Shown piece after piece: positions 2,598 through 31,390 of a stretch of DNA of 35,300 nucleotides; the stretch's first letter is position 1, and each line of letters opens with the position of its first letter. The notes beneath the pieces were generated by a model. The model was not told the origin of the DNA. It ran no database searches and was given only the letters and a program-made list of their open reading frames with translations. Origin of the DNA: Pseudomonadota bacterium. GTDB taxonomy: Bacteria; Pseudomonadota; Gammaproteobacteria; Burkholderiales; Rhodocyclaceae. A program made the position numbers and the translations under genes. The DNA lies in assembly GCA_018262245.1 (NCBI GenBank), contig JAGTRV010000010.1:1-35300 (forward strand), in the 5' to 3' direction.

Positions 2598-2642
2598 CCG
2601 TAACGCAGCAGTAACCAGCGGGTCACGGGTGGGTCGTATCGT
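2598..2642 (+). promoter_or_regulatory. PhoB box (tandem half-sites) with a -10 element upstream of plcP
   Basis: Four heptamers start at 2598, 2609, 2620 and 2631, a strict 11-bp period: CCGTAAC, CAGTAAC, GGGTCAC, GGGTCGT. The first three match the Pho half-site CTGTCAY/CTGTAAC at most positions, and the fourth is degenerate. Half-sites 2-3 (2609-2626) are followed after exactly 10 bp by TATCGT (2637-2642), 4/6 to the -10 consensus; PhoB-dependent promoters use this geometry, the box replacing the -35. Transcription would then begin near 2649, the A of the start codon. The repeats are seen; PhoB control is inferred. Confidence 0.6.
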
Positions 2643-2648
2643 GGGGTC

Positions 2649-3452
2649 ATGCCCAAGGTCAGATCCGTTTTTCTCTCTGATATCCACCTTGGCACGCGGG
2701 CGTGCCAGGCGGACAGACTCCTCGATTTCCTGCGCGAACATCCCGCCGAACAGACTTATCTGATCGGTGATATTGTCGATTTCTGGGCGATGAGCCGGAG
2801 CATCAACTGGTCGCAGGCCCAGAATACCGTCGTCCAGAAACTGCTGCGCCGGGCGCGGCATGGCGACAGGGTGGTGTTCATTCCCGGCAATCACGATGAG
2901 GTGCTGCGTGAATATTGCGGCATCGTCTTCGGCGATGTCGAAGTCGTCGATGAACTGGTCCACGAAACGGCCGATGGTCGGAGCTTTCTGCTCATCCACG
3001 GCGACCAGTTCGACCAGGTGACGCGCCATCATCGCTGGGTTGCCGTGCTCGGTGACCATGCCTACGAACTGCTGGTGCGCATCAACACCTTGTTGTCATG
3101 GGGGCGGCGCAAGCTGGGCATCGCCGGCTACTGGTCGCTGGCCGGCTACGCCAAACGCAAGGTCAAGACGGCACTCACTTTCATTTTCGATTTCGAAGAA
3201 TCCGCCATTCACCACGCCAGGGAGCGCGGGCTGGATGGGGTGATCTGCGGACACATCCATTGGGCGACGATCCGCGAGCTCGATGGCCTGACTTACGTGA
3301 ATTGCGGCGACTGGGTCGATTCCTGCACGGCCATTGTCGAGCACTTCGACGGCCGGCTGGAACTGGTCACCTGGGGCGAGCCCAAACCGGTCCGCCTGCT
3401 GGCCGCACCAGCGCCGGTAGCCGAGCAGGTTGCAGAAACAGTGGAGGCGTGA
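2649..3452 (+). CDS. plcP: Calcineurin-type metallophosphoesterase, PlcP-like phospholipase C (LpxH superfamily)
   Basis: 267 aa, cytoplasmic, no signal peptide. The dinuclear-metal motifs of the superfamily are all present: D11-x-H13 (SDIHLG), D41 (IGDIVDF), N81-H82 (GNHDE), H118 (IHGDQ), H202/H204 (CGHIH). Automatic annotation would call it LpxH (UDP-2,3-diacylglucosamine diphosphatase). The stretches LGTRACQA, VVQKLLRRAR and CGDWVDSCTAIVEH, and the length, are more like the rhizobial/marine PlcP branch as I remember it, which removes the head group of phosphatidylcholine or phosphatidylethanolamine during phosphate starvation and releases diacylglycerol. A GT4 glycosyltransferase starts one base after the stop, the plcP-agt arrangement known in other bacteria, and Pho-box repeats lie directly upstream. 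There is no convincing Shine-Dalgarno before the ATG, but a later start would remove the first metal motif. LpxH remains the alternative. Confidence 0.8.
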   Translation: MPKVRSVFLSDIHLGTRACQADRLLDFLREHPAEQTYLIGDIVDFWAMSRSINWSQAQNTVVQKLLRRARHGDRVVFIPGNHDEVLREYCGIVFGDVEVVDELVHETADGRSFLLIHGDQFDQVTRHHRWVAVLGDHAYELLVRINTLLSWGRRKLGIAGYWSLAGYAKRKVKTALTFIFDFEESAIHHARERGLDGVICGHIHWATIRELDGLTYVNCGDWVDSCTAIVEHFDGRLELVTWGEPKPVRLLAAPAPVAEQVAETVEA

Positions 3453-3453
3453 A

Positions 3454-4635
3454 ATGCGCGTACTGATGGTTTCCGATGTCTATTTCCCGCGCGTCAATGG
3501 CGTTTCGACGTCCATCGAGACATTTCGCCGTACGCTGGTAGCGCAAGGGGTCGAGGTCAGGTTGGTCGTGCCGCGCTATGGCGACGAACCCGACGAAGAG
3601 GGCGTTATTCGTGTCGCCGGCCGCCCGGTGCTGGGGGATCCCGAGGACCGCCTGGTTGGCTGGCGGGCCATGCACCGGGCGGTGCTGGAGGCAGCCCGGG
3701 ATTGCGATCTGGTCCACATCCAGACCCCGTTCATCGCTCACTATGCCGGCCTGAAGGCGGCTCGCCAGCTCGGCCTGCCGGTGGTGGCGACCTACCACAC
3801 GCTGTTCGAGGAATACCTGCAGCACTACGCCCGGTTCATTCCTGCCGGCTGGCTGCGCGGCCAGGCTCGTGCCTTTTCCCGTCGCCAATGCAATCAGCTT
3901 GATGCGGTGATCGTACCATCGACGGCGATGCGCCAGCGACTGGATGCTTACGGCGTGACGTCGCCGATGCATGTGCTGCCGACCGGTATCCCGCTGGCGC
4001 AGTTCGCGGCAGGCGACGGCATGGTCTTCCGTCTGCGTCATGGCATTGCCGAGGACAGGCCGGTGGCGCTGTTTGTCGGTCGGGTGGCGCATGAAAAAAA
4101 TATCGGTTTCCTGCTCGAAGCCCTGGCTCAAGCCCGGCAGACGCGACCCGATACGCTGCTGGTCATCGCAGGCGAGGGGCCGGCGATGAGCGATCTGAAG
4201 GCACAAACTGCGGCGCTCGGCTTGCAGGATTCGGTCATCTTCATCGGCTATCTCGACCGCAAGCAGGCTTTGCCGGATTGTTATGCGGCGGCCGATGTCT
4301 TTGTTTTTGCCTCGCGGACAGAAACGCAGGGCTTGGTCCTGATCGAGGCGCTGGCTGCCGGCGTACCGGTGATCGCGCTGTCAGAAATGGGGACGACAGA
4401 CATTCTGGCGCCCGGCCGCGGCACGTTTTCACCGCCGGCCGATCCCAAAGCCTTCGGTGAAACACTCGGTCATTTCCTCAATCATCCGGCCGCCTGGCGC
4501 CACCTTTGCGACGAGGCGCCGCGCTATGCTCAGGAATGGACAGATGTGGCAATGGCCGAGCGGCTGGCGACGCTTTACCACCAACTGGCCGGTTTGCAGT
4601 GCTCGCCGGAAATGCCATTGACGGCCGCCGCATGA
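3454..4635 (+). CDS. GT4-family glycosyltransferase, candidate diacylglycerol glycosyltransferase
   Basis: 393 aa. The ATG at 3454 lies one base after the plcP stop and has a GGAG 7 bp upstream; an upstream TTG at 3430 is in frame but lacks support. The N-terminal domain opens with RVLMVSDVYFPRVNGVSTSI, typical of MgtA/PimB-like GT4 enzymes. The C-terminal nucleotide-sugar domain has FVGRVAHEKNIGFL, the E-x7-E motif in ETQGLVLIEALAAGVPV, and a glycine-rich acceptor side. Such enzymes are GT-B fold retaining transferases, usually membrane-associated, that use UDP- or GDP-sugars. Translational coupling to the PlcP-like lipase suggests that the acceptor is the diacylglycerol it releases, making glycolipid that saves phosphate. 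The family call is firm. The acceptor and sugar are inferences. Confidence 0.9.
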   Translation: MRVLMVSDVYFPRVNGVSTSIETFRRTLVAQGVEVRLVVPRYGDEPDEEGVIRVAGRPVLGDPEDRLVGWRAMHRAVLEAARDCDLVHIQTPFIAHYAGLKAARQLGLPVVATYHTLFEEYLQHYARFIPAGWLRGQARAFSRRQCNQLDAVIVPSTAMRQRLDAYGVTSPMHVLPTGIPLAQFAAGDGMVFRLRHGIAEDRPVALFVGRVAHEKNIGFLLEALAQARQTRPDTLLVIAGEGPAMSDLKAQTAALGLQDSVIFIGYLDRKQALPDCYAAADVFVFASRTETQGLVLIEALAAGVPVIALSEMGTTDILAPGRGTFSPPADPKAFGETLGHFLNHPAAWRHLCDEAPRYAQEWTDVAMAERLATLYHQLAGLQCSPEMPLTAAA

Positions 4636-4646
4636 TTTAATGGGCG

Positions 4647-4841
4647 ATGGCTGAACAAATTGAACTGGTTTGTGGCGGGTGCCACTATTTCCGAGCTGCG
4701 GATGCCTTGACGGGCGCTTGCCATCGTTTTCCACCCAGCTATGTGGGCGAAAATCCGATGAAGGAATCGCATCACTGGCGTTTTCCTATCGTCAGCGTGC
4801 ATGCCTGGTGCGGCGAATTCCTGTCGAAGTCAGGCGCCTAA
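4647..4841 (+). CDS. Small Cys/His-rich protein of unknown function
   Basis: 64 aa. The ATG at 4647 begins 11 bp after the glycosyltransferase stop, so it is probably the third gene of that transcript. It shows CGGCHYF near the N terminus, a third Cys in ACHRFPP, the HHWRFP segment and a C-terminal WCGEF, a spacing that suggests metal binding (zinc or iron). I recognise the general pattern from small uncharacterised proteobacterial proteins but know no function. Its TAA stop overlaps the TAG of the convergent downstream gene by four bases (4838-4841). Confidence 0.7.
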   Translation: MAEQIELVCGGCHYFRAADALTGACHRFPPSYVGENPMKESHHWRFPIVSVHAWCGEFLSKSGA

Positions 4842-5212
4842 ATATCTTCGAGAGGCGCGACCAGCTGATTCAGATTGCGCAGTCGTTCAGCCATCACCCG
4901 CATGACCTGGGTGGCGAAGAACGGGGTCTGCTGGACCAGGAACTGGAAACGCTTTTCATCGACGGCGACGAATTCGCAATCCGTCGTCGCGATCACGCTG
5001 GCCGAACGCGGCCCGGGCAGGACGATGCCGACTTCGCCGACGATGCTGCCGTGCTGCAAGGTTTCAACGACCCGCTCATGGACGACGACGTCGGCCGAGC
5101 CGGTGGCCAGCACGAACATCATGTGTCCTTCTTCGCCTTCACGGAACAGGGCCTGGCCGGCCGGGACGCGAATCATGGTTGGATTGTGGGCGAAGAGTTC
5201 GATGGAAATCAT
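4838..5212 (-). CDS. Single-domain cyclic-nucleotide-binding-fold (cNMP/Crp-like) protein
   Basis: 124 aa from the ATG at 5212; an in-frame TTG at 5233 would add seven residues and neither start has a clear Shine-Dalgarno. The protein is a cNMP-binding beta-roll: PAGQALFREGEEGHMMFVLATGSADVVV, then a GSIVGEVGIVLPGPRSASVIA segment that corresponds to the phosphate-binding cassette, and a C-terminal helix. There is no helix-turn-helix, so unlike Crp/Fnr it is not a DNA-binding regulator by itself. It probably works by binding a partner. The cassette has GEVGIVLPGPRSAS in place of the canonical GE(L)ALxxxxPRxA, so nucleotide binding is plausible but not certain. It sits between the GT4 gene and the porin, transcribed in the porin direction with about 100 bp between them. 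Confidence 0.8.
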   Translation of the reverse strand: MISIELFAHNPTMIRVPAGQALFREGEEGHMMFVLATGSADVVVHERVVETLQHGSIVGEVGIVLPGPRSASVIATTDCEFVAVDEKRFQFLVQQTPFFATQVMRVMAERLRNLNQLVAPLEDI

Positions 5213-5292
5213 GGGCAGCGCTTGTTCGATCAATAAAGCCCGTTTCTACCATGGGCAGCCCATCGGCGTCTTGTTCGAAATGTTACAAATGC

Positions 5293-5309
5293 AGCCGCGT
5301 GCTGCGGCT
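5293..5309 (-). terminator. Possible hairpin terminator after the porin gene
   Basis: The 6-bp stem AGCCGC/GCGGCT with a five-base loop lies immediately past the porin stop codon. The following minus-strand bases are only mildly T-rich, so it is a weak intrinsic terminator or only a stabilising 3' hairpin. Confidence 0.35.
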
Positions 5310-5312
5310 GGT

Positions 5313-6626
5313 TCAGAATTCGGCGTGGGCGCGCAGCGAGAGGATGTTGGCCGGGCCGCGATCCGCGTTGTAAGCCGGGTTTGAAATGCGCTGGTAATCG
5401 GCCGTCAGCCACAGTCCGGGCAGGGCTTTCAGGCTGTAGTAGGTTTCGAGAATGTTTTCCGGACGGTAGTTCAGGGCGCCATCGCCGATGAAGAAGGAAA
5501 TGCCACCCTTGGCCAGGTAGTCGCGCCGGTCATGGGAAAGGGCGTTGCGCATCCAGGCAACGCCGACCGTGTCGTCACTGCGACCCCAGAGGCTGCCCTT
5601 GAGGGAGAGCCCGGTGGCGAACGAGGCGTCCGCTTCGGTGAAGGCATAGGTTTCGGTGCGGCCATCGGCGCGCATGGCGCGCAGGAAGGCGCCGATGTTC
5701 TCGGTGATCGCCTGCTCGATATTGAGGCCGAATCCGTACTTGATCTTTTCGCCGTTACGTACGTTCAGGATGGCGATCTGATCGGGGCCGGGATTGTTGT
5801 CCAGCCAGGTGCTGCCATCGCGATAGGCGGCCAGGTTGGCGCGATTACGGAAGGCGAGCAGGCGGATCTTGCCAGGCTGGTCGGCGATTTCGTGGGCATG
5901 TTCGAGTTCGATCTGGTCGCCGTAATGGCGCTTGATCTGATAGTCGATTGGCAGGGCGTTAGGCTCGCGCGGGCCGGTCATCCGGCCGAAGCGAAATACC
6001 CAGTCGCCCTGATACCACTCGCCGGCGAAGCCCCAGCCAAAGCCGCGGGCATCGGCTGCATAGTCGAACGCGGCATGCGCCATGTTGCTCCAGTTCATGA
6101 ACTGGGTACGTGGGTCCTTGGCGTAGGCGTTGCCGTCGAAGATATCCAGCGTCGAGAAATTGCCCATGGTCAGCACAAAGCGATCTTTGGCGACATGGCC
6201 GGCCATCTGGTTGAAGGCGGATTCGACGAACTCGGTATCGTCACCCAGCGCCCAGATCTGGCGGAGAAAAAGGCGCTGGCGATAGGCCTTGATCGAGGTG
6301 CCGGAAACACGGGTTGCCTCGCCGTTGGTGAAGCCGCCCAGGCCGGTCAGCCGGGACAGCGGGTCACCCTGGCCAGCCTCGACGTTCAGGTAAATCTCGC
6401 TGCCCTGCCACAGTCGGGCACCGAGATAAGCTGTCGAGGTGAAGGTATAGCTGCTCTCTCCATCCGTGCTCAAGCTGTTGGGGCCGGAGTAGGTGGCGCT
6501 GAAGGATTTTGACTTCTGCGAGACATAGGTGGCCTGCCCCTTGGCCTGCCAGTTCTCGACGGTTTCGTCTGCGAGACAGGGCGTGGCGATGGCGATGCCG
6601 AGGAGGAAGAGGGGCAGGTGGCGCAT
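5313..6626 (-). CDS. Outer-membrane carbohydrate-type porin (OprB-like)
   Basis: 437 aa from the ATG at 6626. The ATG is chosen because it begins a normal signal peptide, MRHLPLFLLGIAIATPCLA, cut before DE; an in-frame TTG at 6635 gives three more residues. The mature protein is rich in alternating aromatic/polar beta strands, contains ARLWQGSEIYLNVEAGQG and TMGNFSTLDIFDGNAYAKDPRTQFMNWS, and ends in HAEF, the terminal phenylalanine recognised by the Bam machinery. The length fits the OprB family (16-18 strands). Family knowledge: OprB porins pass sugars, but relatives take other solutes. A Pho-type promoter precedes it, so the substrate may be linked to phosphate-limited growth. The start has no good Shine-Dalgarno. 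Confidence 0.85.
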   Translation of the reverse strand: MRHLPLFLLGIAIATPCLADETVENWQAKGQATYVSQKSKSFSATYSGPNSLSTDGESSYTFTSTAYLGARLWQGSEIYLNVEAGQGDPLSRLTGLGGFTNGEATRVSGTSIKAYRQRLFLRQIWALGDDTEFVESAFNQMAGHVAKDRFVLTMGNFSTLDIFDGNAYAKDPRTQFMNWSNMAHAAFDYAADARGFGWGFAGEWYQGDWVFRFGRMTGPREPNALPIDYQIKRHYGDQIELEHAHEIADQPGKIRLLAFRNRANLAAYRDGSTWLDNNPGPDQIAILNVRNGEKIKYGFGLNIEQAITENIGAFLRAMRADGRTETYAFTEADASFATGLSLKGSLWGRSDDTVGVAWMRNALSHDRRDYLAKGGISFFIGDGALNYRPENILETYYSLKALPGLWLTADYQRISNPAYNADRGPANILSLRAHAEF

Positions 6627-6661
6627 GAGGAACAAGGGGGATTTTGACGACGAAGGTGCGC

Positions 6662-6695
6662 ATTATAGGTTGCCAGGATGACCGGGAGGTTACGG
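6662..6695 (-). promoter_or_regulatory. PhoB-type promoter of the porin gene
   Basis: On the minus strand two heptamers, CCGTAAC (6695-6689) and CGGTCAT (6684-6678), are separated by 4 bp, as in a Pho box. Each is 6/7 to the half-site consensus. After exactly 10 bp comes a perfect TATAAT (6667-6662). No -35 hexamer is present, as expected for a PhoB-activated promoter. Predicted transcription start is near 6655, giving a leader of about 28 nt. Confidence 0.65.
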
Positions 6696-6706
6696 GAGGG
6701 CCTTGC

Positions 6707-6724
6707 GTGACATTTTCGTGACGA
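6707..6724 (-). promoter_or_regulatory. Second, distal Pho-box-like pair in the porin/dgkA intergenic region
   Basis: Minus strand TCGTCAC-gaaa-ATGTCAC has the 7-4-7 layout and matches the Pho half-site at 5/7 and 6/7. A further CGTGAC on the plus strand (6750-6755) is in the same 11-bp phase, and a perfect plus-strand CTGTCAT lies at 6728-6734. It could be an upstream PhoB site for the porin or serve divergent dgkA. The assignment is uncertain. Confidence 0.4.
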
Positions 6725-6782
6725 CGGCTGTCATCAAAGCTTAGCCAAGCGTGACTAAGGTGGGTGCTTTCACGGAGATGTC

Positions 6783-7199
6783 ATGCAGGAACCCTCTTCG
6801 CACGATCTGGGCCTTGATCCGGCCAACGAATCACCGTTCAAGGGCAAGACCGGCCTGCGCCGGGTCTGGAATGCCTTCAACTACTCGATGGCCGGCCTGA
6901 AGGCGGCCTATCTGTGCGAAGACGCCTTTCGCCAGGAGGTGTGGCTCGCTGTCTTGCTGATCCCCACTGCCTTCCTGCTGCCGGTACCGTGGCCGGCACG
7001 CGGCCTGATGGTCGCCAGCGTGCTGCTCGTGCTGGTCGTTGAACTGCTCAATTCGGCCATCGAGGCGGTGGTTGATCGCGTCAGCCTGGAAAATCATCGG
7101 CTGGCCAAGCGGGCCAAGGATATCGGCAGTGCCGCCGTGCTCATTTCGCTGCTGCTGGTGGTCGTGGTCTGGGTTTGCGTTTTGCTGGAGAGCGTCTGA
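6783..7199 (+). CDS. dgkA: Diacylglycerol kinase DgkA
   Basis: 138 aa, slightly longer than E. coli DgkA (about 122 aa) through an N-terminal extension. The ATG is preceded by GGAG. The family signature ELLNSAIEAVVDRVSLE...LAKRAKDIGSAAV carries the conserved Glu, Asn and Glu of the active site. Three membrane helices are visible (about residues 52-66, 70-92 and 114-136). It phosphorylates diacylglycerol to phosphatidic acid with ATP at the inner membrane. The stop overlaps the start of the next gene (TGATG), so the two are translationally coupled. Beside a PlcP-like lipase and two glycosyltransferases it probably recycles or removes diacylglycerol that is not turned into glycolipid. Confidence 0.95.
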   Translation: MQEPSSHDLGLDPANESPFKGKTGLRRVWNAFNYSMAGLKAAYLCEDAFRQEVWLAVLLIPTAFLLPVPWPARGLMVASVLLVLVVELLNSAIEAVVDRVSLENHRLAKRAKDIGSAAVLISLLLVVVVWVCVLLESV

Positions 7200-8320
7200 T
7201 GTCGATCGCCATTGCCTTTGTCACTGAAACATTCCCGCCTGAAGTTAACGGCGTGGCAATGACCGTCGGCCGGCTGGTTGGCGGCTTGCGTGAACGCGGC
7301 CATCGGGTCAGCGTCATCCGCCCGAGTCAGAGCAAGGCCGACGCGAGTAGCGAGCATGAACTGACCCTGCCGGGGTTTCCGCTGCCCGGCTATCCCGGTC
7401 TGCGCTTTGGCTGGCCGGCCAGCCGTCGACTCGCCCGGCAATGGCGACAGAACCGGCCTGATCTGGTGCACGTGGTGACCGAAGGGCCGCTTGGCTGGTC
7501 GGCGGTCAATGTCGCCCGCCGGCTGGGCATTCCGGTGACCTCCGGCTTTCATACCAATTTCGACCGTTACAGCGTGCATTACGGGCTGGGCTGGATGCGT
7601 CCGGCGGTTGCTGCCTATTTGCGTACCCTGCATCGGCGGACGCTGGCGACGATGGTGCCGACTGCTGCGCTGGCCGCCGATCTGGCCGGCGAAGGCTTGC
7701 GCGGTGTGCGGGTGGTCGGGCGTGGCGTCGATGCGGCGCTGTTCGATCCCGCCAGGCGCAGCCCGGAGCTGCGCGCCCGTTGGAGCGTTGAAGCGGATGG
7801 GCCGGCTTGCCTCTATGTGGGCCGAATGGCCGCCGAGAAAAATCTGGCCCTGGTCGAGAAAAGCTTTGCCGCGATCCAGGTCTGGCATCCCAAGGCAAAA
7901 ATGATCTGGGTCGGCGACGGTCCATCCGCCAAGCAATTGGCGGCTGATCATCCGGATCATCATTTCGCCGGCATGCGGACTGGCGAGGATCTGGCTGCTC
8001 ACTATGCCAGCGCCGACCTCTTCCTGTTTCCCAGCCTGACCGAAACCTACGGCAACGTGGTCGCCGAGGCGATGGCTAGCGGCTTGCCGGTGCTGGCCTA
8101 CCGCAGTGCGGCGGCGGCCGAGTTGATTGTCGATGGCGAGAATGGCCGCCTGGTGGCGCCGGGTGATGAAGATGGCTACAAGCGTGCGGCGCTCGATCTG
8201 GTGTCGAATCTGGAAAACTTGCCTGTGCTTGGGCGGGCTGCCCGGGGTTCCATGCTGCACCACCATTGGGCGATGGTTGTTGAGCGCTTCGAGACCGTCA
8301 TGCGGGAAGCGATGGCCTGA
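7199..8320 (+). CDS. GT4-family glycosyltransferase, second copy in the locus
   Basis: 373 aa. The ATG at 7199 overlaps the dgkA stop by one base, with GGAGAG upstream inside dgkA. It begins SIAIAFVTETFPPEVNGVAMTVGRLV, the GT4/MgtA N-terminal signature also seen in the first glycosyltransferase. The donor domain has YVGRMAAEKNLALVEKSF, a VGDGPS loop and the E-x7-E motif in ETYGNVVAEAMASGLPV. It is clearly homologous to the GT4 at 3454 but divergent in sequence, so the two may act in sequence (mono- then di-glycosylation) or with different sugars. Coupling to dgkA suggests a lipid acceptor. Exact donor and product cannot be read from sequence. Confidence 0.9.
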   Translation: MSIAIAFVTETFPPEVNGVAMTVGRLVGGLRERGHRVSVIRPSQSKADASSEHELTLPGFPLPGYPGLRFGWPASRRLARQWRQNRPDLVHVVTEGPLGWSAVNVARRLGIPVTSGFHTNFDRYSVHYGLGWMRPAVAAYLRTLHRRTLATMVPTAALAADLAGEGLRGVRVVGRGVDAALFDPARRSPELRARWSVEADGPACLYVGRMAAEKNLALVEKSFAAIQVWHPKAKMIWVGDGPSAKQLAADHPDHHFAGMRTGEDLAAHYASADLFLFPSLTETYGNVVAEAMASGLPVLAYRSAAAAELIVDGENGRLVAPGDEDGYKRAALDLVSNLENLPVLGRAARGSMLHHHWAMVVERFETVMREAMA

Positions 8321-8762: not shown

Positions 8763-9377
8763 CTAATGGGGAGCGCGCTTAATTTCGACGACGGCAGGAT
8801 CGTCGCCGTGATCGATCAGCAGGCGTTTGACGCGATCCTGCCAGAGCTTTCCGAAGAGCCCGGTTTCGGCGGCGTTGGCCGTGCCGCTGACGATTCCTGG
8901 CAATAATTTGCCGAGCATGGGGTCGGCGGGCACCAGGTGAGGCCGAAAAACGCAGTCGACCGTAGCGCCGGTATCGAGGCGCCGAAAGCGCATGCCCATA
9001 AGCTCGGCAACGCCAAACTTTAGCAAGCCACGCCGGGCATGTTGCCCGCCGAGCCCCTTGAAGCCCCCATCGCCGGCGGCACCGGTCAGCAAGGTAGCAA
9101 TGCTGGCGATAACCCCGGCCACGCCACTGTCGAGATCGTCTTGCAAGGCGACGGCGATATTGCCGCGTACCGGCGTTTCGCTGCCGTATAGCTCGCCTAG
9201 CGCCCGGACGCTCATCAGCCATGCCCCGGCCACGGTGGGGCAGGAATGCCCGGCCAGTTTGACGGCATCTGCAAAGGTGTACTCGATCAGACCACCATCG
9301 GCCGCACCAAGCAGTTCAGCCAGCGGGTCGCGCAGGGTGATCGCAGGAATCCGGGCAAAAAAATCGGGTAGCGGCAT
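8763..9377 (-). CDS. FmdE-like domain protein, function unknown
   Basis: 204 aa from the ATG at 9377, which has AGGAGA at good spacing; a longer frame to 9485 lacks a ribosome site. The region FADAVKLAGHSCPTVAGAWLMSVRALGELYG resembles the GHxCPG...AL..LG core of FmdE (formylmethanofuran dehydrogenase subunit E) proteins, whose His and Cys can bind metal. The body also has GVIASIATLLTGAAGDGGFKGLGG. There are no methanofuran or molybdopterin genes nearby, so the methanogenesis role of the family name should not be transferred. No signal peptide is seen. The family assignment is from memory of the motif and is moderate. Confidence 0.6.
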   Translation of the reverse strand: MPLPDFFARIPAITLRDPLAELLGAADGGLIEYTFADAVKLAGHSCPTVAGAWLMSVRALGELYGSETPVRGNIAVALQDDLDSGVAGVIASIATLLTGAAGDGGFKGLGGQHARRGLLKFGVAELMGMRFRRLDTGATVDCVFRPHLVPADPMLGKLLPGIVSGTANAAETGLFGKLWQDRVKRLLIDHGDDPAVVEIKRAPH

Positions 9378-9603
9378 GAGTTTTGTCTCCTTTGTCGGCC
9401 ATTGTCTTGGGATCGTTGCCGGAGGGCCTTGATGTTCATCATTAGCAAATGAGGTTTTGACCAAGATGTGGGCTAGTCCGGCCAATGCTTCCGCGATGAG
9501 CTTGGTCGCGTCGTTTCGGGTTGAAGACAGAGGGCATTTTGGATATGAAAATGGCGTATAAAAAGATTTACCAATATGTCATTTGTTGAGAAATGGGCAA
9601 TTC

Positions 9604-23476: not shown

Positions 23477-25183
23477 ATGCCCAGACCTTCGAGCATTCAA
23501 AGCACCTACCTGCAACGTCGGGGTGCGGCTTATTATTTTCGCTACACCGTTCCGCCTTCGCTCACCCACGCACTGGGCCGTAAGGTTCTCAAGGTGTCCC
23601 TGCGGACCGCCTACCTGCACCCCGCACGACTCCGCGCGGCCACCGTCATGGCTGCTCTTCAGGGGATAATTGCGGACTTCACAGAGACAAACGACAAGGC
23701 GCACCGCATGGACAACCTGAAGGAGAAACTGGAGGCCATGCTGCGGGACATGAACGAGCGCTGGTTAGATCATCACCTAAGCCGCCGTCGCCCACTCGAA
23801 GAGGACCAGCTAGGCGCTGAAGATGACACCATTTCTATGGTTCAGTCTGATTGCATGGAGGCATTGCAGACTGGCAACTGGAAGCGCTGGGAGAACCTCG
23901 CCCGTAATTTCGTGAAGGAACACGACCTACCGGTTGAAGAGGGCAGCATTGAATTTCGTTACATCTGCTTTGAGGTGGGCAAGCTGGAAGCACGCGCTCA
24001 CGATTCGTCACTCGCTACCCTGCGCGGAGATTTCACAGTACAGCCGCCGCCTTACACAGTCCCCGCGCCTGCCGTCATTGCGCCGTCGCAGTCGCTTGAA
24101 GGGGATGCTGCAATGCTGCTATCTGATGTCTATGAGGAGTTCTGTAAGCACAAGACCGCACAGAAGGCGTGGAAGCGGCCTGATGTGTCTCGCGCCCATG
24201 ATTACGATCCCATCATTCCACCGTTCATTGCTCTGGTTGGTGACAAGCCGCTGGGCTCCCTTTCGTTGGCTGATGTCCGGAAGTTCGTAGATGTGACGCT
24301 GGCCGGGGTAGGGCGCAAGATGGGCACCAAAAAGCGTGACCTTGACCGCGTGAAGGCCTTACTGAACTACGCGCACAAACATCTTGGCGGGCCTGCCGTA
24401 ACAGGGCCATTGTCCTTGGAGATGAGTTACAACGAAATTCACGATTCGTATGAGCCGTTCAGTCCTGACGAACTTGAGCGGCTGTTCAACTCCTCGGATT
24501 ACAAGGCCAATACCTTTAAAAAGGCCTCACAGTTCTGGCTTCCCCTTCTTGGGCTCTATACGGGGGCGCGTATTGATGAGCCAGCAAGTATGCTGCTAAG
24601 CGAGATTGTCCGGGAGGGCGACATCTGGGCTTTCTATATGAGCGGCGATGAGGCCAACGGGGGAGGGAAGAATGCGTACGCTCCACGCTGGCTCCCTATT
24701 CACCCAGTCTTGATAGAGCTGGGCTTCATTGAGTACGTTCAGTTGCTTAAAGATGAAGGGCATGAGCGCCTGTTTCCTGACATCGGGGCGGCTGCACGTG
24801 ATGGTTACGGTAAACGGGCTACTACGGACTTCACAGCTTATCGTCGCGGCGTTGGCGTTGGGGGTGACAGGCTCAACCCGGTCACCAAGAAATGGGAAGG
24901 AAGCAGCACAAAGGTATTCCACTCTTTCCGGGCCACCGTAAGCACAGGCCTCGTCTATGCGGATGTCGATGGCTCAACGGCGCGGCGTCTCGTGGGGCAT
25001 GAAGCTAAGGATGTGCATGGAAAAGTGTATGAAAAGCACCTTGACCAGCGCTGGCTAGTTCCTGCTCTGGCTGCTCTATCGAAGCTGGATTACGGCCTGA
25101 GTCATCCGAAGTTTGTCGATACGGATGCCTACCGGAAAGCCCGGAAGAGAATCCGCCGCGTGCCTGTGGGGGCTACGGCCTGA
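23477..25183 (+). CDS. Tyrosine-type site-specific integrase (DUF6538 N-terminus), intact
   Basis: 568 aa. The N-terminal DUF6538-like segment (YLQRRGAAYYFRYTVPPSL) is followed by a long linker and a core-binding domain (about 205-320). The catalytic domain has R365 in YTGARIDE, HSFR (H482, R485), GH (H508 in LVGHEA) and the nucleophile Y518 in GKVYEKHL. All expected residues are present, so the enzyme is probably active. It lies 95 bp downstream of the tRNA-Met attachment core, typical of integrases that use a tRNA 3' end. No Shine-Dalgarno is clear before the ATG. Confidence 0.93.
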   Translation: MPRPSSIQSTYLQRRGAAYYFRYTVPPSLTHALGRKVLKVSLRTAYLHPARLRAATVMAALQGIIADFTETNDKAHRMDNLKEKLEAMLRDMNERWLDHHLSRRRPLEEDQLGAEDDTISMVQSDCMEALQTGNWKRWENLARNFVKEHDLPVEEGSIEFRYICFEVGKLEARAHDSSLATLRGDFTVQPPPYTVPAPAVIAPSQSLEGDAAMLLSDVYEEFCKHKTAQKAWKRPDVSRAHDYDPIIPPFIALVGDKPLGSLSLADVRKFVDVTLAGVGRKMGTKKRDLDRVKALLNYAHKHLGGPAVTGPLSLEMSYNEIHDSYEPFSPDELERLFNSSDYKANTFKKASQFWLPLLGLYTGARIDEPASMLLSEIVREGDIWAFYMSGDEANGGGKNAYAPRWLPIHPVLIELGFIEYVQLLKDEGHERLFPDIGAAARDGYGKRATTDFTAYRRGVGVGGDRLNPVTKKWEGSSTKVFHSFRATVSTGLVYADVDGSTARRLVGHEAKDVHGKVYEKHLDQRWLVPALAALSKLDYGLSHPKFVDTDAYRKARKRIRRVPVGATA

Positions 25184-25294
25184 CCACAAAAACAGGGGAG
25201 GAGGGACGGACGGCGGGGCAATCCACGTTTGTTGTGAAATCACCCCGCAAGCCGCGTCGTTACTCGGCACCTCGTTCATTCTGTCCGCTGTGGG

Positions 25295-25309
25295 TGTCCC
25301 ATTGGGACA
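25295..25309. repeat. Perfect inverted repeat TGTCCCA-T-TGGGACA
   Basis: A 7-1-7 palindrome nested in a wider inverted repeat (CCGCTGT at 25285, ACAGCGG at 25307). It lies between the convergent integrase and ParB-like genes and shares the TGGGACA half-site with the repeats before the integrase. It could be a terminator-like hairpin (no T-run) or a protein-binding site. Confidence 0.45.
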
Positions 25310-25338
25310 GCGGTAGTTGCACCGGGCGGGGCGGTGTC

Positions 25339-26088
25339 CTATAGGAGTTCCAATGGGTCCGCCTCGAAATGCTCCTTCAGCTTCATTTGCGCAATGACCC
25401 GCTCTGCCTCATCAATAGCCTGCTGCCTTAGTTCAGGATCGCGCAGGGCATCGCAAGCAGCAAGAGCATCCCGCAGGGCTTGGTTGGTTCTCCGCAGGTT
25501 TTCTGGATCACGGTCAATCTGCGGTGGCTCGGCTTCCCGGGTCTGCGTGTCGTCCTTCGCCATCGCCTTAAATGTGACAGGGTGATCAAGCTCCATGTAT
25601 CGGTGCAACGTTGAGCGCTTGATGCCCAGTTCCTTCTCCAAGTCCCGGTAAGACATCACAATCTCACCGCCCACTTTGTGGAGCCCCGCTTGCAGGAACA
25701 ACGAAAGGCGCCGCCGCTTATCTGCTGACGTAAGCCCCTGCCCTTGCGTGGCATTCGCCCGGCTCGCTACGGCCTTGGCTTCCCTCCATTTCATTGGCGT
25801 GATGATCGCCTCAAGGTTTTCATGTCCTAGGCTGAGGTGCGCCGCTTCGAACCTGTGCCATCCCTCAACGAGGAAGAGTTTGCCGTCGATTTGTGCAAGG
25901 CTGACAGGCGGGAACTTCTGCCCGCAGTGCATCTCGTCTGCGTACTTCTTGACCACGCCGGGGAGAGTTCCTTTTACTCGAATCTGGAACTCCTCGCTGC
26001 GAGTGACATCCGAAGCACGTACGGCCTTGGAGCCCTCGCCTATCTGCCACGGCCAGTTATCGCCTCGCTTGGCTCTCGGTTTTTTCAT
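25339..26088 (-). CDS. ParB-like (ParB/Srx fold) protein with helix-turn-helix
   Basis: 249 aa from the ATG at 26088, chosen because GGAG lies 7 bases upstream; an in-frame ATG at 26109 has none. The N-terminal ParB/sulfiredoxin-like segment contains FPPVSLAQIDGKLFLVEGWHRFEAA (the GxxR-like box is GWHRF). The middle part has a helix-turn-helix (VMSYRDLEKELGIKRSTLHRYM) and the tail is a charged helix. Proteins of this fold can be CTP-dependent partition proteins, nucleases or element regulators. There is no ParA here, so classical partition is unlikely; regulation of the element is a fair guess. It overlaps the small gene upstream by 32 bp. Confidence 0.75.
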   Translation of the reverse strand: MKKPRAKRGDNWPWQIGEGSKAVRASDVTRSEEFQIRVKGTLPGVVKKYADEMHCGQKFPPVSLAQIDGKLFLVEGWHRFEAAHLSLGHENLEAIITPMKWREAKAVASRANATQGQGLTSADKRRRLSLFLQAGLHKVGGEIVMSYRDLEKELGIKRSTLHRYMELDHPVTFKAMAKDDTQTREAEPPQIDRDPENLRRTNQALRDALAACDALRDPELRQQAIDEAERVIAQMKLKEHFEADPLELL

Positions 26089-26278
26089 TGCGTACTCCAC
26101 GCTCTTCATTTGATTGACGATGCTCGCCCAAGATGCGGGCCAATACTTGATTGTTGTTCAGGCGCTCACCAGTACGCCGTTCGATGTCTCGCTGAAAGTC
26201 CTTCAGATAATCGAATGCGGACACCGGGAAGGCCACCTGCCGAAATACTAACTGCTCGCTGTTGTTGGGATGAATCAT
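26057..26278 (-). CDS. Small protein, possible ribbon-helix-helix-like partner of the ParB-like protein
   Basis: 73 aa: VFRQVAFPVSAFDYLKDFQRDIERRTGERLNNNQVLARILGEH suggests a short strand followed by two helices, as in small element-encoded DNA-binding proteins. The C-terminal tail is very charged. It lies between the RNase H-like gene (39 bp) and the ParB-like gene (overlap), so it probably belongs to one transcript. I do not recognise a named family. Confidence 0.6.
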   Translation of the reverse strand: MIHPNNSEQLVFRQVAFPVSAFDYLKDFQRDIERRTGERLNNNQVLARILGEHRQSNEERGVRNEKTESQARR

Positions 26279-26317
26279 TGATCTGCTTTCGTAAATGGGG
26301 TTGTCCTGCTGGGGCTG

Positions 26318-26761
26318 CTATTGGTTGGCCTTGCTGATGCCTTGGTTGGCTAACCGGTTTGCCTGTTCATTGCCAGAATGACCACTCACCCAGACCCATT
26401 CCACCTGATGTGCGGCTGCCAGTTCATCAAGGCGCTGCCACATCTCGGCATTGACGACCGGCTTCTTACCTGACTTTTTCCAGCCCCGTGCCTTCCAGTC
26501 GCTTAGGTACTTGGTCATCCCATCGACGACATACTGGGAGTCCGTAATTAGGCGCACCGGTAGGGGCTTTTTCAGGGCCTCAAGGGCTTTGATAGCTGCG
26601 GTCAGTTCCATCTCACTATTCGTGGTCCAGAATGTTCCTCCGCACAACTCCAGCCTGCGTTCATTCCGGTAGATGACCACTCCCCAGCCGCCGGGGCCGG
26701 GATTGCCTTTGCAGGCCCTGCCAATGTGGATGACTACCGGATTATCTGCGGTGGCGCTCAT
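26318..26761 (-). CDS. RNase HI homologue lacking two catalytic aspartates
   Basis: 147 aa from the ATG at 26761, which has GAGG upstream; the frame extends to 26848 without a better start. The RNase HI fold is unmistakable: ACKGNPGPGGWGVVIY, NSEMELTAAIKALEAL, LITDSQYVVDGMTKYL, GWKKSGKKPV, WQRLDEL and WVSGHSG. Of the catalytic set (E. coli D10, E48, D70, D134; H124), E52, D74 and H128 are kept. D10 is replaced by G14 (HIGRAC where TDGAC is usual) and D134 by N135 (EQANRLAN where ERADxLA is usual), with a nearby three-residue deletion. It should not cleave RNA-DNA hybrids in the normal way. First gene of the minus-strand ParB-like module. Confidence 0.88.
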   Translation of the reverse strand: MSATADNPVVIHIGRACKGNPGPGGWGVVIYRNERRLELCGGTFWTTNSEMELTAAIKALEALKKPLPVRLITDSQYVVDGMTKYLSDWKARGWKKSGKKPVVNAEMWQRLDELAAAHQVEWVWVSGHSGNEQANRLANQGISKANQ

Positions 26762-27289
26762 TGGCTGCCTCGTCGGGCTTCGTACTTCATCATCTTCTTC
26801 CTTCAAGTTAATGGGCTGGAAGGAGCCGTTTCTCGTTGCTCTTTCCAATAGGTGGGTTTTACATAAACAAATGCTATTAAAATTGTATATGCTATAGCTA
26901 GGTTATATGTAATAAATTTGTGCTTTATCCTTGTCCCTCAAGGCTTTCCAGTAATCTGCGCCTGTTCATGCATTTGGCGCTGTTTGAGCGCTCCAGAGAC
27001 ACGGTGGAACGTGGCCATCGATTCGCCTGCAGATGCCTTCTGCGGTGCCCTTGCGTGCGTTCTGGAGGCGTCCTGAGTGCGGAGATAGACGGCGCGCTTC
27101 GGGCTTGGCGAATAGCAGCCTGCCAGCATCTGGAGACTACAAGCCAGCTATGAGTACGCGGACGGCTGAGGTTTTGGCAGTGAAGGGCGTAACTTAGGCG
27201 GAGTGGCGAGCAGAAGGCATCTCGGGTACTCTTCTCAAAAAGTCATTGGCATTTATTGCTTACACTACTTGAGAGTAAATAGGGGTCTT
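26762..27289. other. Intergenic stretch in element 1 without a supported gene
   Basis: About 530 bp. The first 180 bp is very AT-rich on its right side (26860-26930, several TATA-like hexamers), suited to promoters for the minus-strand RNase H operon. A 63-codon minus-strand frame at 26938-27129 could be a decayed gene end but has no ribosome site. The last 60 bp before 27290 holds the likely promoter and AGGGG ribosome site of the next gene, with imperfect inverted repeats TACTCTTCTCAA and TTGAGAGTA. Confidence 0.5.
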
Positions 27290-27811
27290 ATGAAGTTCGT
27301 TCCTTGGGTTGTTTCAGTTGTCTGCTTGGCGTTGCTCGGGTGGGTGTGGCAAGACTCGCAGGCAAAGCTGGCGCAGAAAGATGCTGAACTGGTAAATATG
27401 AAGCAGCAATACAGCGAACTGGTAGCCGATGCCAATGTAAAGATTGCCGCTGCAAGCAGTAAGGCTAAGCAGATTGCGGAGGAGGCGAATAACCAGATAA
27501 AACAACTGGCAGATGAAGCCAACGATAAACTCCAGCAGGCCAATCAACGGGAAGTCCCGGTGTCCGTTGGGTTTCGTAAGGCTCTGATGAGCAACGGGCA
27601 TGTTGCAATGTTTACCAACACCTCTGCACAGTCAATAGCGGTTGTGGTGGAGGTCAGCAGGGCCTCCTCAGGTCAGACCCGGAGCTTTGACATGACCCTT
27701 GATTCAGGCCGAAAGAGGGAGCTCGGGGAGCGTGAAGGGTGGGCCTTTGTGACTGGCGACACGCTCACCCTCTCTCAACCAGAGCATAAATCCTTGATCG
27801 TTAAGTTCTAG
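27290..27811 (+). CDS. Membrane-anchored coiled-coil protein with C-terminal beta domain
   Basis: 173 aa from the ATG at 27290 with AGGGG upstream. One N-terminal membrane segment (about residues 4-20, VPWVVSVVCLALLGWVW) is followed by a long heptad-like coiled coil (about 22-88, rich in Ala, Lys, Glu and Gln) and a C-terminal domain of about 80 residues with beta character (GHVAMFTNTSAQSIAVVVEVSRASSG...). The anchor probably places the coil and domain in the periplasm. No family recognised. Its codon use is unlike the chromosomal core. It stands alone on the plus strand. Confidence 0.75.
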   Translation: MKFVPWVVSVVCLALLGWVWQDSQAKLAQKDAELVNMKQQYSELVADANVKIAAASSKAKQIAEEANNQIKQLADEANDKLQQANQREVPVSVGFRKALMSNGHVAMFTNTSAQSIAVVVEVSRASSGQTRSFDMTLDSGRKRELGEREGWAFVTGDTLTLSQPEHKSLIVKF

Positions 27812-27998
27812 CAAGGGGCGCTACGCCGATGGCGTGGCCTCCTGCTGGCTCATCTCCGAATCTGCAAGGGCGTCGCGAATGTTATGCATAAGCGCGCGGC
27901 TATTCCATCAATAGGGCCGCACTTTTCTAGCCTCGCACACCAAGTTTATTCCCCAGCTTCTGAATTTACACACCTACTTAGAATCAACTAACAGGCCT

Positions 27999-28400
27999 AT
28001 GAAATTCTCAAAAAGCAAATGGCTGGCCTATACGTTTCTTGTCGGGCTACTTCCGGTCTTGACTAGGTTATTGGCATGGGCCAATACCACAACAGGGATG
28101 GTTAGCCCTATCGCCGCGTCAGACTTCGTGGCATTCGGCTTGGTCCTGCACGTGTCAGTAATAAATGAACTGGAGCACCTTCCCGGCAAAGAAAAGGAAT
28201 GGAAGACCATTCAAAATGGGACATCGCTGGTATTTGTTGCGCTGTATAGCTCACTCTACGCCTTAACCATCATTGGAGAGAAAAACGCTAGCCTGATCGA
28301 CGCAAACGTGATGCTTCGAAGCAGCATGATCCTTGCTATGGTTTCTACGCTTCTTAGCTTGTCGGTTTTTCATCGCGTATCGAAGTTGGGCTCAAAATGA
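27999..28400 (+). CDS. Small multi-pass membrane protein, first gene of a three-gene operon
   Basis: 133 aa with about four membrane segments: residues 9-28 (YTFLVGLLPVLTRLLAWA), 40-56, 76-92 and 107-125. A short charged loop (ELEHLPGKEKEWK) lies between segments 2 and 3. No family recognised. Its TGA overlaps the ATG of the next gene (ATGA), which argues for translational coupling. AT-rich relative to core genes. Confidence 0.7.
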   Translation: MKFSKSKWLAYTFLVGLLPVLTRLLAWANTTTGMVSPIAASDFVAFGLVLHVSVINELEHLPGKEKEWKTIQNGTSLVFVALYSSLYALTIIGEKNASLIDANVMLRSSMILAMVSTLLSLSVFHRVSKLGSK

Positions 28401-28525
28401 GTAACTTAATCTACGCGGTAACCGGATTAGTTTCCGTTATCGGAATCGGCGTTGCCATTTGGTCATTCATAGATACCCGCAAGACCTATTACACCGAGTA
28501 CAAAAATAGGAAAGCCAATGATTAA
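28397..28525 (+). CDS. 42-aa single-pass membrane protein, second gene of the operon
   Basis: 42 aa: a membrane helix (about residues 5-25, IYAVTGLVSVIGIGVAIWSF) and a basic/aromatic tail (DTRKTYYTEYKNRKAND). The ATG overlaps the previous stop and its TAA overlaps the next gene's start by 8 bp. The overlaps on both sides and the hydrophobic profile support a real gene despite the short length. Confidence 0.65.
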   Translation: MSNLIYAVTGLVSVIGIGVAIWSFIDTRKTYYTEYKNRKAND

Positions 28526-29450
28526 CAGCATTATTTATCTTGACGAAGCCAAGATGTATTCAATGTCTTCACAGATATTCGAGGGCTTAACTGAATATGT
28601 GTTGAAAGAAGTTAATTCGACAAAAGAGAACTCGGAAGAGCAAAAAGGGCCAGTGGGGAGTGGCAGAATTGTTGCGGATGCTATGAAGCTGAGTGAGAGA
28701 GCCATAGAAAAAAGGTTCCTCCATGACCATTCGCTGTCACTGTTTGAGGCTCGGCTTGCTGAGCTTGCGCTTGTTTGCAGCCTAGACTCAAGCGCCGCTG
28801 ACGAGGTGCCGCCACTAGAAGGCAAGTCGTTTATACGGGTTAGTGCGCGAGCTAGCTTCATCGATGCCGCAAAGATTACCTCAATGCTTGAAACCTTCAA
28901 TGCGCTAGGTGAAGCGATTACCCACGTCACTAAATTTTCTGAAATCGAAGCTAATCGTAAGGAAATCGAAGTGTTGAAAGCTTCGTCGAAGGACAAAGCC
29001 AGGCTTGAGAAATTGCGACAACTCGAAAGACAATTGACCAACACTACTGAACTCGCCAAGCAAGGTGGGATGTACCATGACCCGAAGTTCCTGAAACATT
29101 TGGCACTTGTGACCCAGTTTGGATTCTCTGATCAGCTGGAGATTCAGCAGCGCATTGGGGAGCGTTTGTTCTCTGCTTGTCTAAAACGGGAGTGTCTGCG
29201 AGAACCAGAAGAATTCATTATCCGAAAATACTCTCGGAATACAGAAAGAAACTTAGTGGTTCTAGGTGTCATTACTCAGTCAAAATTCACTTCCGGCGAT
29301 GCTGTGAGTGAGATTTCCGGCGAAGGCATGAGCATGAAAGAAGCCGTAACGAATATGGTCAATCATATTGCAGTGCTTGAAGGCTCGCTTTCGGGAAAAG
29401 CAACCTCTGAAGTAGTGATTGATCCAATAGCCGTCTATGTGACTCTCTAG
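28518..29450 (+). CDS. DUF6414-like protein, third gene of the operon
   Basis: 310 aa, soluble. It begins INSIIYLDEAKMYSMSSQIFEGLTEYV, which I recognise as the start of the DUF6414 family (…YLDE.KMYS.SSQ.FEG.TEY). A predicted long helix or coiled coil occupies about residues 145-185 (EIEANRKEIEVLKASSKDKARLEKLRQLERQL), and the C-terminal third is mixed alpha/beta. No enzyme motif seen. Members that I recall sit in variable or defence-rich regions, but no function is established. It is coupled to the two membrane proteins, which suggests a membrane-associated complex. Confidence 0.75.
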   Translation: MINSIIYLDEAKMYSMSSQIFEGLTEYVLKEVNSTKENSEEQKGPVGSGRIVADAMKLSERAIEKRFLHDHSLSLFEARLAELALVCSLDSSAADEVPPLEGKSFIRVSARASFIDAAKITSMLETFNALGEAITHVTKFSEIEANRKEIEVLKASSKDKARLEKLRQLERQLTNTTELAKQGGMYHDPKFLKHLALVTQFGFSDQLEIQQRIGERLFSACLKRECLREPEEFIIRKYSRNTERNLVVLGVITQSKFTSGDAVSEISGEGMSMKEAVTNMVNHIAVLEGSLSGKATSEVVIDPIAVYVTL

Positions 29451-29534
29451 TAGTAGATGCTTACGACACCAGTATGACGAAGTCTCAGAAAGTAACGCTT
29501 TTGTTGTCTGCCATAAACAGTCGGCAAAGCAGAG

Positions 29535-30143
29535 CTACACCCTTCCATTTTCATTTTTGAGGTCTAGGTACTGATACAGCGTTTCCCTGCTGATCCCGTG
29601 CTCCCTCGCAAGTCCAGCGCGGTTCTTCCCCGCCCGCTCCTTGTCCTGTACCTTCAGTGCCTCAACCTGCTCCACTGAAAGAGTTGGCTTCCTGCCTTTA
29701 TAGACGCCCTTCGTCTTGGCAATGGCGATGCCTTCCCGTTGGCGTTCCTTTATCAGGCTCCTCTCGAACTCCGCAAAGGCGCCCATCACTGACAGCATGA
29801 GCCGTGACATAGCCGAGTCCGCCCCCGTAAAGGTCATGGACTCCTTCATAAACTGCACGGCAATTCCCTTGTCTGTTAGGCTATCAACGATGCGCCGTAA
29901 ATCGTCCAGATTGCGGGCTAATCGGTCCATTGAATGACAAACCAAGGTGTCACCCTCCCGGACATACTCAAGGGCTGCTTGTAGCTGGGGGCGGTTGGTA
30001 TCCTTCCCGCTGGCCCTGTCGGTGAATACCTTATTCAGCGTTATCCCTTCGAGCTGGCGCTCGGTATTCTGGTCAAGCGCGGATACACGGACATAGCCAA
30101 TCATCTGGCCTTTGTGTTGGGTGCTAGCTGCGGTGGTGGTCAT
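29535..30143 (-). CDS. Serine recombinase (resolvase/invertase family)
   Basis: 202 aa. The catalytic serine lies in IGYVRVSALDQNTERQ; the arginine-rich site is in HSMDRLARNLDDLRRIV; FAEFERSLIKERQREGI forms the long helix. The C-terminal helix-turn-helix is GLAREHGISRETLYQYL. It is similar to Tn3 resolvases and DNA invertases. No transposase is next to it. It may resolve element dimers or act at a site in the divergent region (30144-30332), which has short inverted repeats. Confidence 0.93.
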   Translation of the reverse strand: MTTTAASTQHKGQMIGYVRVSALDQNTERQLEGITLNKVFTDRASGKDTNRPQLQAALEYVREGDTLVCHSMDRLARNLDDLRRIVDSLTDKGIAVQFMKESMTFTGADSAMSRLMLSVMGAFAEFERSLIKERQREGIAIAKTKGVYKGRKPTLSVEQVEALKVQDKERAGKNRAGLAREHGISRETLYQYLDLKNENGRV

Positions 30144-30173
30144 TCTAGGTCGCTCCTGCTATTGTCAGGATAG

Positions 30174-30202
30174 ACTCTAAGACGTTGCGCTGGATGTGTC
30201 AA
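30174..30202 (-). promoter_or_regulatory. Promoter of the serine recombinase gene
   Basis: The minus strand has a perfect TTGACA (30202-30197), a 17-bp spacer and TAGAGT (30179-30174), 4/6 to the -10. It overlaps a short inverted repeat (GTC...GAC), suggesting autoregulation by the recombinase. Confidence 0.55.
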
Positions 30203-30332
30203 TAAATTCTAATGTAAACCCTATTCGGACTGATTTGGGTGTCCTGCCTGACATCAGGTTAGGGTACGCCTCAACCTTACGCATTTAATTCTTTCTTCGC
30301 GGCATGGTTAAATTCCATTTTGCATAGTTTCC

Positions 30333-31387: not shown

Positions 31388-31390
31388 AAG

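Follow-up and report, generated by a model that had tools for sequence, protein, structure and literature searches.

The remodelling of membranes by the intracellular phospholipase C PlcP and Agt glycosyltransferases is well described (PMC4796936, PMC9239053, PMC8231724, PMC3972451); statements on the papers cited here and below refer to excerpts of their texts. In Pseudomonas aeruginosa the system consists of PlcP and two glycosyltransferases, Agt1 and Agt2 (PA3219, PA3218 and PA0842), and Agt2 forms glucuronosyl-diacylglycerol in Escherichia coli and in vitro, with some use of UDP-glucose (PMC8528852). SAR11 bacteria and methanotrophs likewise possess plcP followed by a gene for a GT4 glycosyltransferase, under phosphate control, and the GT4 enzymes of Agrobacterium, SAR11 and the methanotrophs are called Agt homologues. 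A kinase for diacylglycerol (DAG) has also been found in such company. In P. putida BIRD-1, DagK and PlcP are both Pho-dependent lipid-renovation proteins (PMC5082522), in SAR11 HTCC7211 a metallophosphoesterase, a glycosyltransferase and a protein with a DAG kinase catalytic domain are among the strain-specific genes (PMC3686209), and the phosphate islands of HIMB59 carry a DGK, an 'LpxH' and a glycosyltransferase (PMC10734472). In view of these precedents, a DAG kinase alongside PlcP is not itself new.

Here we describe a plcP locus from a member of the Rhodocyclaceae (assembly GCA_018262245.1, contig JAGTRV010000010.1). The window analyzed is the entire contig of 35.3 kb, from a genome of 3.78 Mb that is 84% complete. 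The locus encodes PlcP, a first GT4 glycosyltransferase (GT4-1), the integral-membrane DAG kinase DgkA and a second GT4 glycosyltransferase (GT4-2), together with three accessory proteins (Table 1); every gene listed by a first-pass annotation of this DNA was found. The comparisons below support the view that PlcP, GT4-1, DgkA and GT4-2 are one module. It is likely that this module remodels lipids under predicted PhoB control, with DAG passing from PlcP to glycolipids and DgkA providing a return. While the kind of pathway is known, the combination in which a non-Agt GT4 stands beside PlcP and a dedicated DgkA is coupled to an Agt2-type GT4 is new.

The genes of the module keep close company within the genus. 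Of 48 genomes from the same genus, 42 encode PlcP, and 40 of these 42 plcP loci were compared, with G022 and G036 left out. In 39 of the 40, GT4-1 follows plcP within 150 bp on the same strand, and in the 40th it lies 372 bp away, measured from the match ends. GT4-2 is present within the stretch in 35 loci, and in 27 of them DgkA stands directly before it. A relative of GT4-2 occurs in 38 of the 42 genomes with PlcP and in none of the six without (Fisher p=1.7e-5, with relatedness ignored). Similarly, GT4-1 is present in 7/7 PlcP-carrying genomes searched and absent from all six PlcP-less genomes, two of which are <85% complete. The relatives of GT4-2 in G016 and G019 are just 50-52% identical and lie elsewhere in the genome, and that in G010 lies on another contig.

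The association extends to several named groups. Out of 594 confirmed loci, the best 80 make up the named set, which leans to near relatives for this reason. With gaps of <2 kb between the genes as the criterion, all four are clustered in 22 of the 80 loci, and four-gene loci are named Dechloromonas, Azonexus, Rhodocyclus, Azovibrio, Sulfuritalea and Rugosibacter. The order is PlcP-GT4-1-DgkA-GT4-2 in 12 clusters, GT4-1-DgkA-GT4-2-PlcP in eight and GT4-1-DgkA-PlcP-GT4-2 in one, and in one more PlcP is inverted. Because the gene orders are rearranged, a shared function is indicated rather than mere inheritance as a block. Together with the adjacency of DgkA and GT4-2 within the genus, this clustering upholds the placement of the DgkA-GT4 pair in the same set as plcP in the first-pass annotation, and the translational coupling that it had described fits the stop/start overlap TGATG of dgkA and GT4-2 (7197-7201). 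In the other pair, GT4-1 starts one base past the plcP stop.

The metallophosphoesterase of the window is, by sequence, a PlcP. It shares 52% identity with the PlcP of P. aeruginosa and 49% with that of S. meliloti. Between these two references the identity is 46.6%, which matches the 46% printed for the pair (PMC8528852). Both were taken from plasmid records with chromosome-like stretches, where the P. aeruginosa plcP is followed by a glycosyltransferase gene and the S. meliloti plcP stands beside genes for an acyl-homoserine lactone synthase and LuxR. The relatives bear the database name 'UDP-2,3-diacylglucosamine diphosphatase', which would make the protein an LpxH and place the locus in lipid A synthesis, a reading to which we attach almost no probability. 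Against the LpxH model the window protein scores only 45 bits, where the cut-off is 190, while the LpxH of the same genome reaches 239 bits on another contig (G000:C128) and is 30% identical to the window protein across 136 residues. A search of 41 genomes found LpxH above the cut-off in 39, never at the place of plcP. In a quick tree, as were all trees behind the clade assignments made here, 33 PlcP rows split from 22 LpxH rows with support 86; one LpxH row (L277) almost certainly comes from a frame that was cut at the wrong place. The identification as LpxH was rejected on account of the low score, the separate LpxH and the separate tree group, and the proposal of the first-pass annotation that the protein is PlcP, with a separate lpxH to be sought in the genome, is borne out.

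Some further plcP copies may be recorded here. In L125 (G061:C7:19938-20663), a second PlcP copy has two in-frame stops, lacks a Pho box and adjoins a relative of GT4-1; it is probably a decaying duplicate. Two P. aeruginosa plasmid records (L306 and L308) hold chromosome-like stretches with plcP-agt1 or agt2, and on a plasmid of Mitsuaria sp. 7 (L311) plcP adjoins ppk1 and a Ppx/GppA phosphatase gene.

The two glycosyltransferases differ markedly in their relationships. The first-pass annotation had taken PlcP and the glycosyltransferase that follows it for the known route, a description that fails for the plcP-GT4-1 pair because GT4-1 and Agt1 belong to different clades. GT4-1 is ~30% identical to Agt1 and Agt2 (31% to Agt1) and forms a clade separate from both with support 100. 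In contrast, GT4-2 shares 49% identity with P. aeruginosa Agt2 and 33% with Agt1, and P. aeruginosa Agt2 is nested inside the GT4-2 clade with support 99. At 11 loci from other families of the order, the glycosyltransferases adjoining plcP share 47-55% identity with P. aeruginosa Agt1, with which they group (support 99). The motifs divide in the same way: the Agt1 group reads D-T-F/Y-G-L, GT4-2 and Agt2 read E-T-F/Y-G-N, and GT4-1 reads E-T-Q-G-L. The D256-T257-F258-G259 of the SAR11 enzyme GTcp agrees with the Agt1 group and differs from the E-T-Q-G of GT4-1 and the E-T-Y-G-N of GT4-2. By sequence, then, the GT4-1 that adjoins plcP is not a canonical Agt, and the Agt-like enzyme of the locus is the DgkA-linked GT4-2. 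In this respect GT4-1 also differs from the GT4s of Agrobacterium, SAR11 and the methanotrophs. The pairing of GT4-1 and PlcP also occurs outside the Rhodocyclales, since plcP is divergent from a GT4-1 relative of 53% identity on plasmid pTs417 of the gammaproteobacterium Ca. Thiodictyon (L309).

The locus thus resembles the P. aeruginosa system in its PlcP, its Agt2 relative, the possession of two GT4s and its Pho boxes, and departs from it in arrangement. The names Agt1 and Agt2 were assigned to the reference sequences by gene context, since the records hold no PA numbers: the plcP-glycosyltransferase pair was matched to PA3219/PA3218, and the glycosyltransferase beside plcR and a phospholipase C gene to PA0842, whose place we assume to adjoin plcR. 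In P. aeruginosa the glycosyltransferase next to plcP is Agt1, whereas that of the window belongs to another clade. Agt2 of P. aeruginosa lies beside plcR/phospholipase C and a gene for a 319-residue DegV-family protein, whereas its relative in the window is coupled to DgkA and lies near plcP. An identification of PA0841, next to P. aeruginosa Agt2, as a DgkA, by which the DgkA-GT4 pair would have had a precedent, was rejected, as a change at residue 304 is listed for it in one paper and the neighbor in the record is the DegV-family protein.

If GT4-2 used UDP-glucuronate, as its closeness to Agt2 suggests, the supply of this substrate would be plausible. A nucleotide-sugar dehydrogenase resembling UDP-glucose dehydrogenase, at ~450 bits, was present in 10/10 relatives searched, and the best fit of the one that was scanned was TuaD (502 bits, with a cut-off of 700). 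No sign was seen that UDP-glucose dehydrogenase belongs to the Pho regulon in 10 relatives, where the two-half-site scores were <=1.7 bits and the plcP median was 14.9. Upstream of a TviB-like nucleotide-sugar dehydrogenase in L332 (G047) lies a weak Pho-like site, which scores 5.3 bits on two half-sites and 6.0 bits on three.

The linked DgkA is a regular member of its family (PF01219, 116 bits, above the cut-off). In an alignment with the solved prokaryotic DgkA (PDB 3ze4) the stretches FRQE, NSAIEAVVDR and RAKD are kept, while the window protein differs in being a second copy within a Pho module and in having about ten extra N-terminal residues. In the scheme proposed below it would act on DAG rather than on undecaprenol or another lipid; the residues within the conserved stretches presumably have their usual roles. 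The other DgkA of this genome is encoded elsewhere, and each of the six PlcP-less genomes has a single DgkA. The DgkA tree comprised 63 rows, with 32/63 linked rows and all 31 solo rows. The 24 solo copies from the genus cluster together (support 100) to the exclusion of the linked ones, which sets the linked DgkA apart from the other copy of the genus. The kinases of SAR11, HIMB59 and P. putida resemble it in accompanying a metallophosphoesterase, an 'LpxH' or PlcP, and in the first two also a glycosyltransferase. In contrast to the window, the cited passages on these organisms mention no pairing of the kinase with an Agt2-type GT4, and they specify the type of kinase for SAR11 only.

Control of the locus by phosphate is very likely, judging from predicted PhoB boxes. 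The Pho matrix describes a 7-bp half-site, was trained only on 21 pstS promoters of the genus and was read at 11-bp spacing. These promoters were those of pstS genes adjoining pstC, because the PstS family TIGR00975 was matched in just 8/48 genomes, and their common box is CTGTCAT-N4-CTGTAAC. Significance in the window was estimated from 500 shuffles; regions of relatives were tested at p<=0.05 with 60 shuffles each and the window counted in each set, on three half-sites for plcP and on two for other genes. The prediction of the Pho box at plcP is firm. The half-sites CCGTAAC, CAGTAAC and GGGTCAC (p=0.004) make up the highest-scoring triple site of the window, both strands considered, at 14.3 bits, the next unrelated site scoring 6.9. 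Upstream of plcP a significant site was present in 41/42 regions. The single region without one belongs to a copy with in-frame stops from a different family, and all 40 plcP loci of the genus (40/40) accordingly have the box. The controls rarely reached p<=0.05 (GT4-1 0/40, ORF p9 1/18, a response regulator 0/4 and the Cys-rich ORF 1/6).

The second unit has a more dispersed signal. The first-pass annotation had proposed Pho boxes at two promoters. That of plcP stands, as does the one on the porin strand between oprB and dgkA (p=0.006), and the site facing dgkA is weaker. In relatives, the region before dgkA was significant in 15/27 cases, or 5/27 with three half-sites, that of oprB in 7/9 and that of the gene for a cyclic nucleotide monophosphate (cNMP)-binding protein in 18/21. 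GT4-2 has a Pho box of its own in 7/9 loci where no DgkA was found and in 1/28 with DgkA, which indicates that the box remains in front of whichever gene leads the dgkA/GT4-2 unit. Likewise, the cNMP gene has a Pho box in 16/17 loci that lack the porin and in 2/4 that have it, the window not among the latter two. Both patterns support Pho control of the second unit. A scan of the locus for sigma-70 promoters found none. In G037 plcP lies directly downstream of phoR (PhoR 428 bits, above the cut-off), whereas G007 has phoB upstream of plcP (350 bits, above the cut-off). Among the 42 PlcP-carrying genomes of the genus, pstC is on the same contig at 4.5-22.7 kb from plcP in 29 and at 69.5 kb in one more; in the remaining 12, the genome of the window among them, it is on a different contig or was not found.

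These features suggest the following mechanism. At low phosphate, PlcP would cleave phosphatidylethanolamine and phosphatidylglycerol to DAG and the phosphorylated headgroup, which would free phosphate. GT4-2 would then add a sugar to DAG, most likely glucuronic acid, giving an anionic lipid in place of phosphatidylglycerol, or possibly glucose. GT4-1, which stands where Agt1 does elsewhere, may make a second and probably neutral glycolipid, either a mono- or a diglycosyl-DAG. The dedicated DgkA would convert unglycosylated DAG to phosphatidate, which would avert a build-up of non-bilayer lipid and feed the reduced phospholipid synthesis that is still required. It is plausible that DgkA would set the split of DAG between glycolipid and phosphatidate, as the first-pass annotation had proposed. 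The comparisons themselves show the identities of the genes, their clades, conservation and linkage, and the predicted Pho boxes; we infer the activities of PlcP and the Agt2-type enzyme from characterised relatives. Glycosylation of DAG by GT4-1 is weakly suggested by its characterised relatives, and we only infer its product, the role of DgkA and the actual glycolipids.

Several observations weigh against this scheme. A kinase that re-phosphorylates the product of PlcP opposes the saving of phosphate, the predicted Pho box of dgkA itself is marginal (p=0.054), and the linked DgkAs do not form a single clade, with 4 label changes and few supported forks. In 31/80 named loci GT4-2 has no partner gene of the module within 2 kb. 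DgkA is missing beside GT4-2 in 8/35 loci of the genus and GT4-2 from 4/42 PlcP-carrying genomes, so neither is essential. Among 18 plcP loci from other families of the order, DgkA is close by in just two (G068 and G077), after plcP and the glycosyltransferase gene. DgkA in E. coli salvages the DAG that arises from headgroup transfer, and the linked copy might similarly be a generic salvager of DAG coming mainly from headgroup transfer to glucans or lipid A, present here only through co-transcription with a GT4. This would fit its absence beside GT4-2 in 8/35 loci of the genus and its presence close to plcP in just 2/18 loci of the other families, and also the 8/80 named loci that hold a DgkA-GT4-2 pair while the stretch fetched contains neither PlcP nor GT4-1. 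However, the genome already holds another DgkA, which forms a separate group within the genus, and the linked copy stays with PlcP and both GT4s across several gene orders, and the Pho-controlled head before it is of the kind seen with GT4-2. We regard a generic salvager as improbable and prefer a DgkA dedicated to the module.

Other doubts concern the glycosyltransferases. GT4-1 has no close characterised relative (~30% to the Agts) and matched no curated family above its cut-off, and the genome of the window itself yields just a below-cut-off nucleotide-sugar dehydrogenase, so that a supply of UDP-glucuronate is seen in relatives only. GT4-1 could also act second, on the product of GT4-2, to yield diglycosyl-DAG instead of a separate monoglycosyl-DAG. 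Two unrelated GT4s in one module would suit such a sequence, as would the processive second enzyme Pgt beside Agt in A. tumefaciens (PMC3972451) and the rarity of genomes with GT4-1 and no GT4-2 relative. Yet precisely these four genomes, G006, G009, G022 (74% complete) and G036, retain PlcP together with GT4-1 while lacking GT4-2. This favors GT4-1 accepting DAG itself, and the second-best curated model for GT4-1 is a monoglucosyl-DAG synthase (130 bits, with a cut-off of 400). Action in sequence thus appears rather unlikely. It is much less likely still that both GT4s decorate lipopolysaccharide or exopolysaccharide while PlcP merely frees phosphate, with no replacement by glycolipid. The GT4 family is very broad, and among solved structures GT4-1 best matches Tll1590 and phosphatidylinositol mannoside mannosyltransferases; against this, GT4-2 groups with the DAG-glycosylating Agt2, and a polysaccharide-export or polymerase family was present in 0/10 window proteins scanned around the locus. 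The synthesis of glycolipids from the DAG released by PlcP remains the preferred reading.

Table 1. Features of the plcP locus, with positions in the 35.3-kb window
Feature	Position	Strand	Basis
Three tandem PhoB half-sites, 11-bp spacing, upstream of plcP (predicted)	2598..2626	+	pstS-promoter matrix, p=0.004
plcP, PlcP-family intracellular phospholipase C, 267 aa	2649..3452	+	Metallophos domain; 52%/49% identity to known PlcPs
GT4-1, GT4 glycosyltransferase outside the Agt1/Agt2 clades, ETQGLV motif	3454..4635	+	domain, tree, motif
Four-cysteine small protein, 64 aa	4647..4841	+	ORF; no family match
Protein with a single cNMP-binding domain	4838..5212	-	PF00027, 63 bits
OprB-family porin	5313..6626	-	PF04966
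Two PhoB half-site pairs, oprB/dgkA intergenic (predicted)	6678..6724	- (porin strand)	p=0.006 for 6678-6695
Weaker PhoB half-site pair towards dgkA, CTGTCATCAAAGCTTAGC (predicted)	6728..6745	+	p=0.054
dgkA-2, integral-membrane diacylglycerol kinase, module-linked copy	6783..7199	+	PF01219, 116 bits
GT4-2, Agt2-type GT4 glycosyltransferase	7199..8320	+	49% identity to P. aeruginosa Agt2

The accessory genes are less constant. The first-pass annotation had counted the Cys-rich protein, the cNMP-fold protein and the porin as extensions of the locus. They are indeed present, and oprB and the cNMP gene share the Pho control, but as fixed parts they do not hold, since they vary within the genus (18, 21 and 10 of 40 loci, respectively). 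The Cys-rich protein matches no Pfam or NCBIfam family, and all four of its cysteines are kept in 16 full-length matches. The cNMP-domain protein could possibly be a phosphate-controlled sensor of cyclic nucleotides. The place of the OprB porin within the locus varies between genomes. Beyond GT4-2, a 206-aa protein without a Pfam match is encoded at 8763-9383 on the reverse strand, and relatives of it lie near GT4-2 in many loci of the genus. Further along, 23477-32705 is probably an integrated mobile element, judging from integrase-like and resolvase-like ORFs, named by reading their sequences, and a GC content down to 48-57%.

The DAG kinase may have a wider meaning. The DAGK_cat fold of the SAR11 kinase is unrelated to DgkA. 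A tentative proposal, which we consider less likely than not, is that a DAG kinase is a general and overlooked third part of PlcP remodelling, for which unrelated kinases would have been recruited independently to one phosphate response, and that PlcP and the kinase would drive a controlled cycle of DAG and phosphatidate by which acyl chains are divided between glycolipid and phospholipid. The recruits would be DgkA here, DAGK_cat in SAR11, DagK in P. putida and the DGK of the HIMB59 islands. As part of the same proposal, GT4-1 would be a non-orthologous replacement of Agt1 and a new class of DAG glycosyltransferase.

In conclusion, the locus predicts phosphate-saving glycolipids for a betaproteobacterial group in which they have not been reported in the literature searched. 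No account of PlcP in Dechloromonas or the Rhodocyclales was found there, and none of the papers listed by wider searches dealt with such a module, judging from titles and the openings of abstracts, most subscription journals being outside the search, in agreement with the first-pass annotation, which knew of no description of this arrangement in the group. A glycosyltransferase beside plcP cannot safely be assumed to be an Agt, which matters to surveys that infer lipids from the neighbors of plcP. Moreover, the module poses a testable puzzle, namely why a kinase that would undo the product of PlcP is retained in the same gene set.

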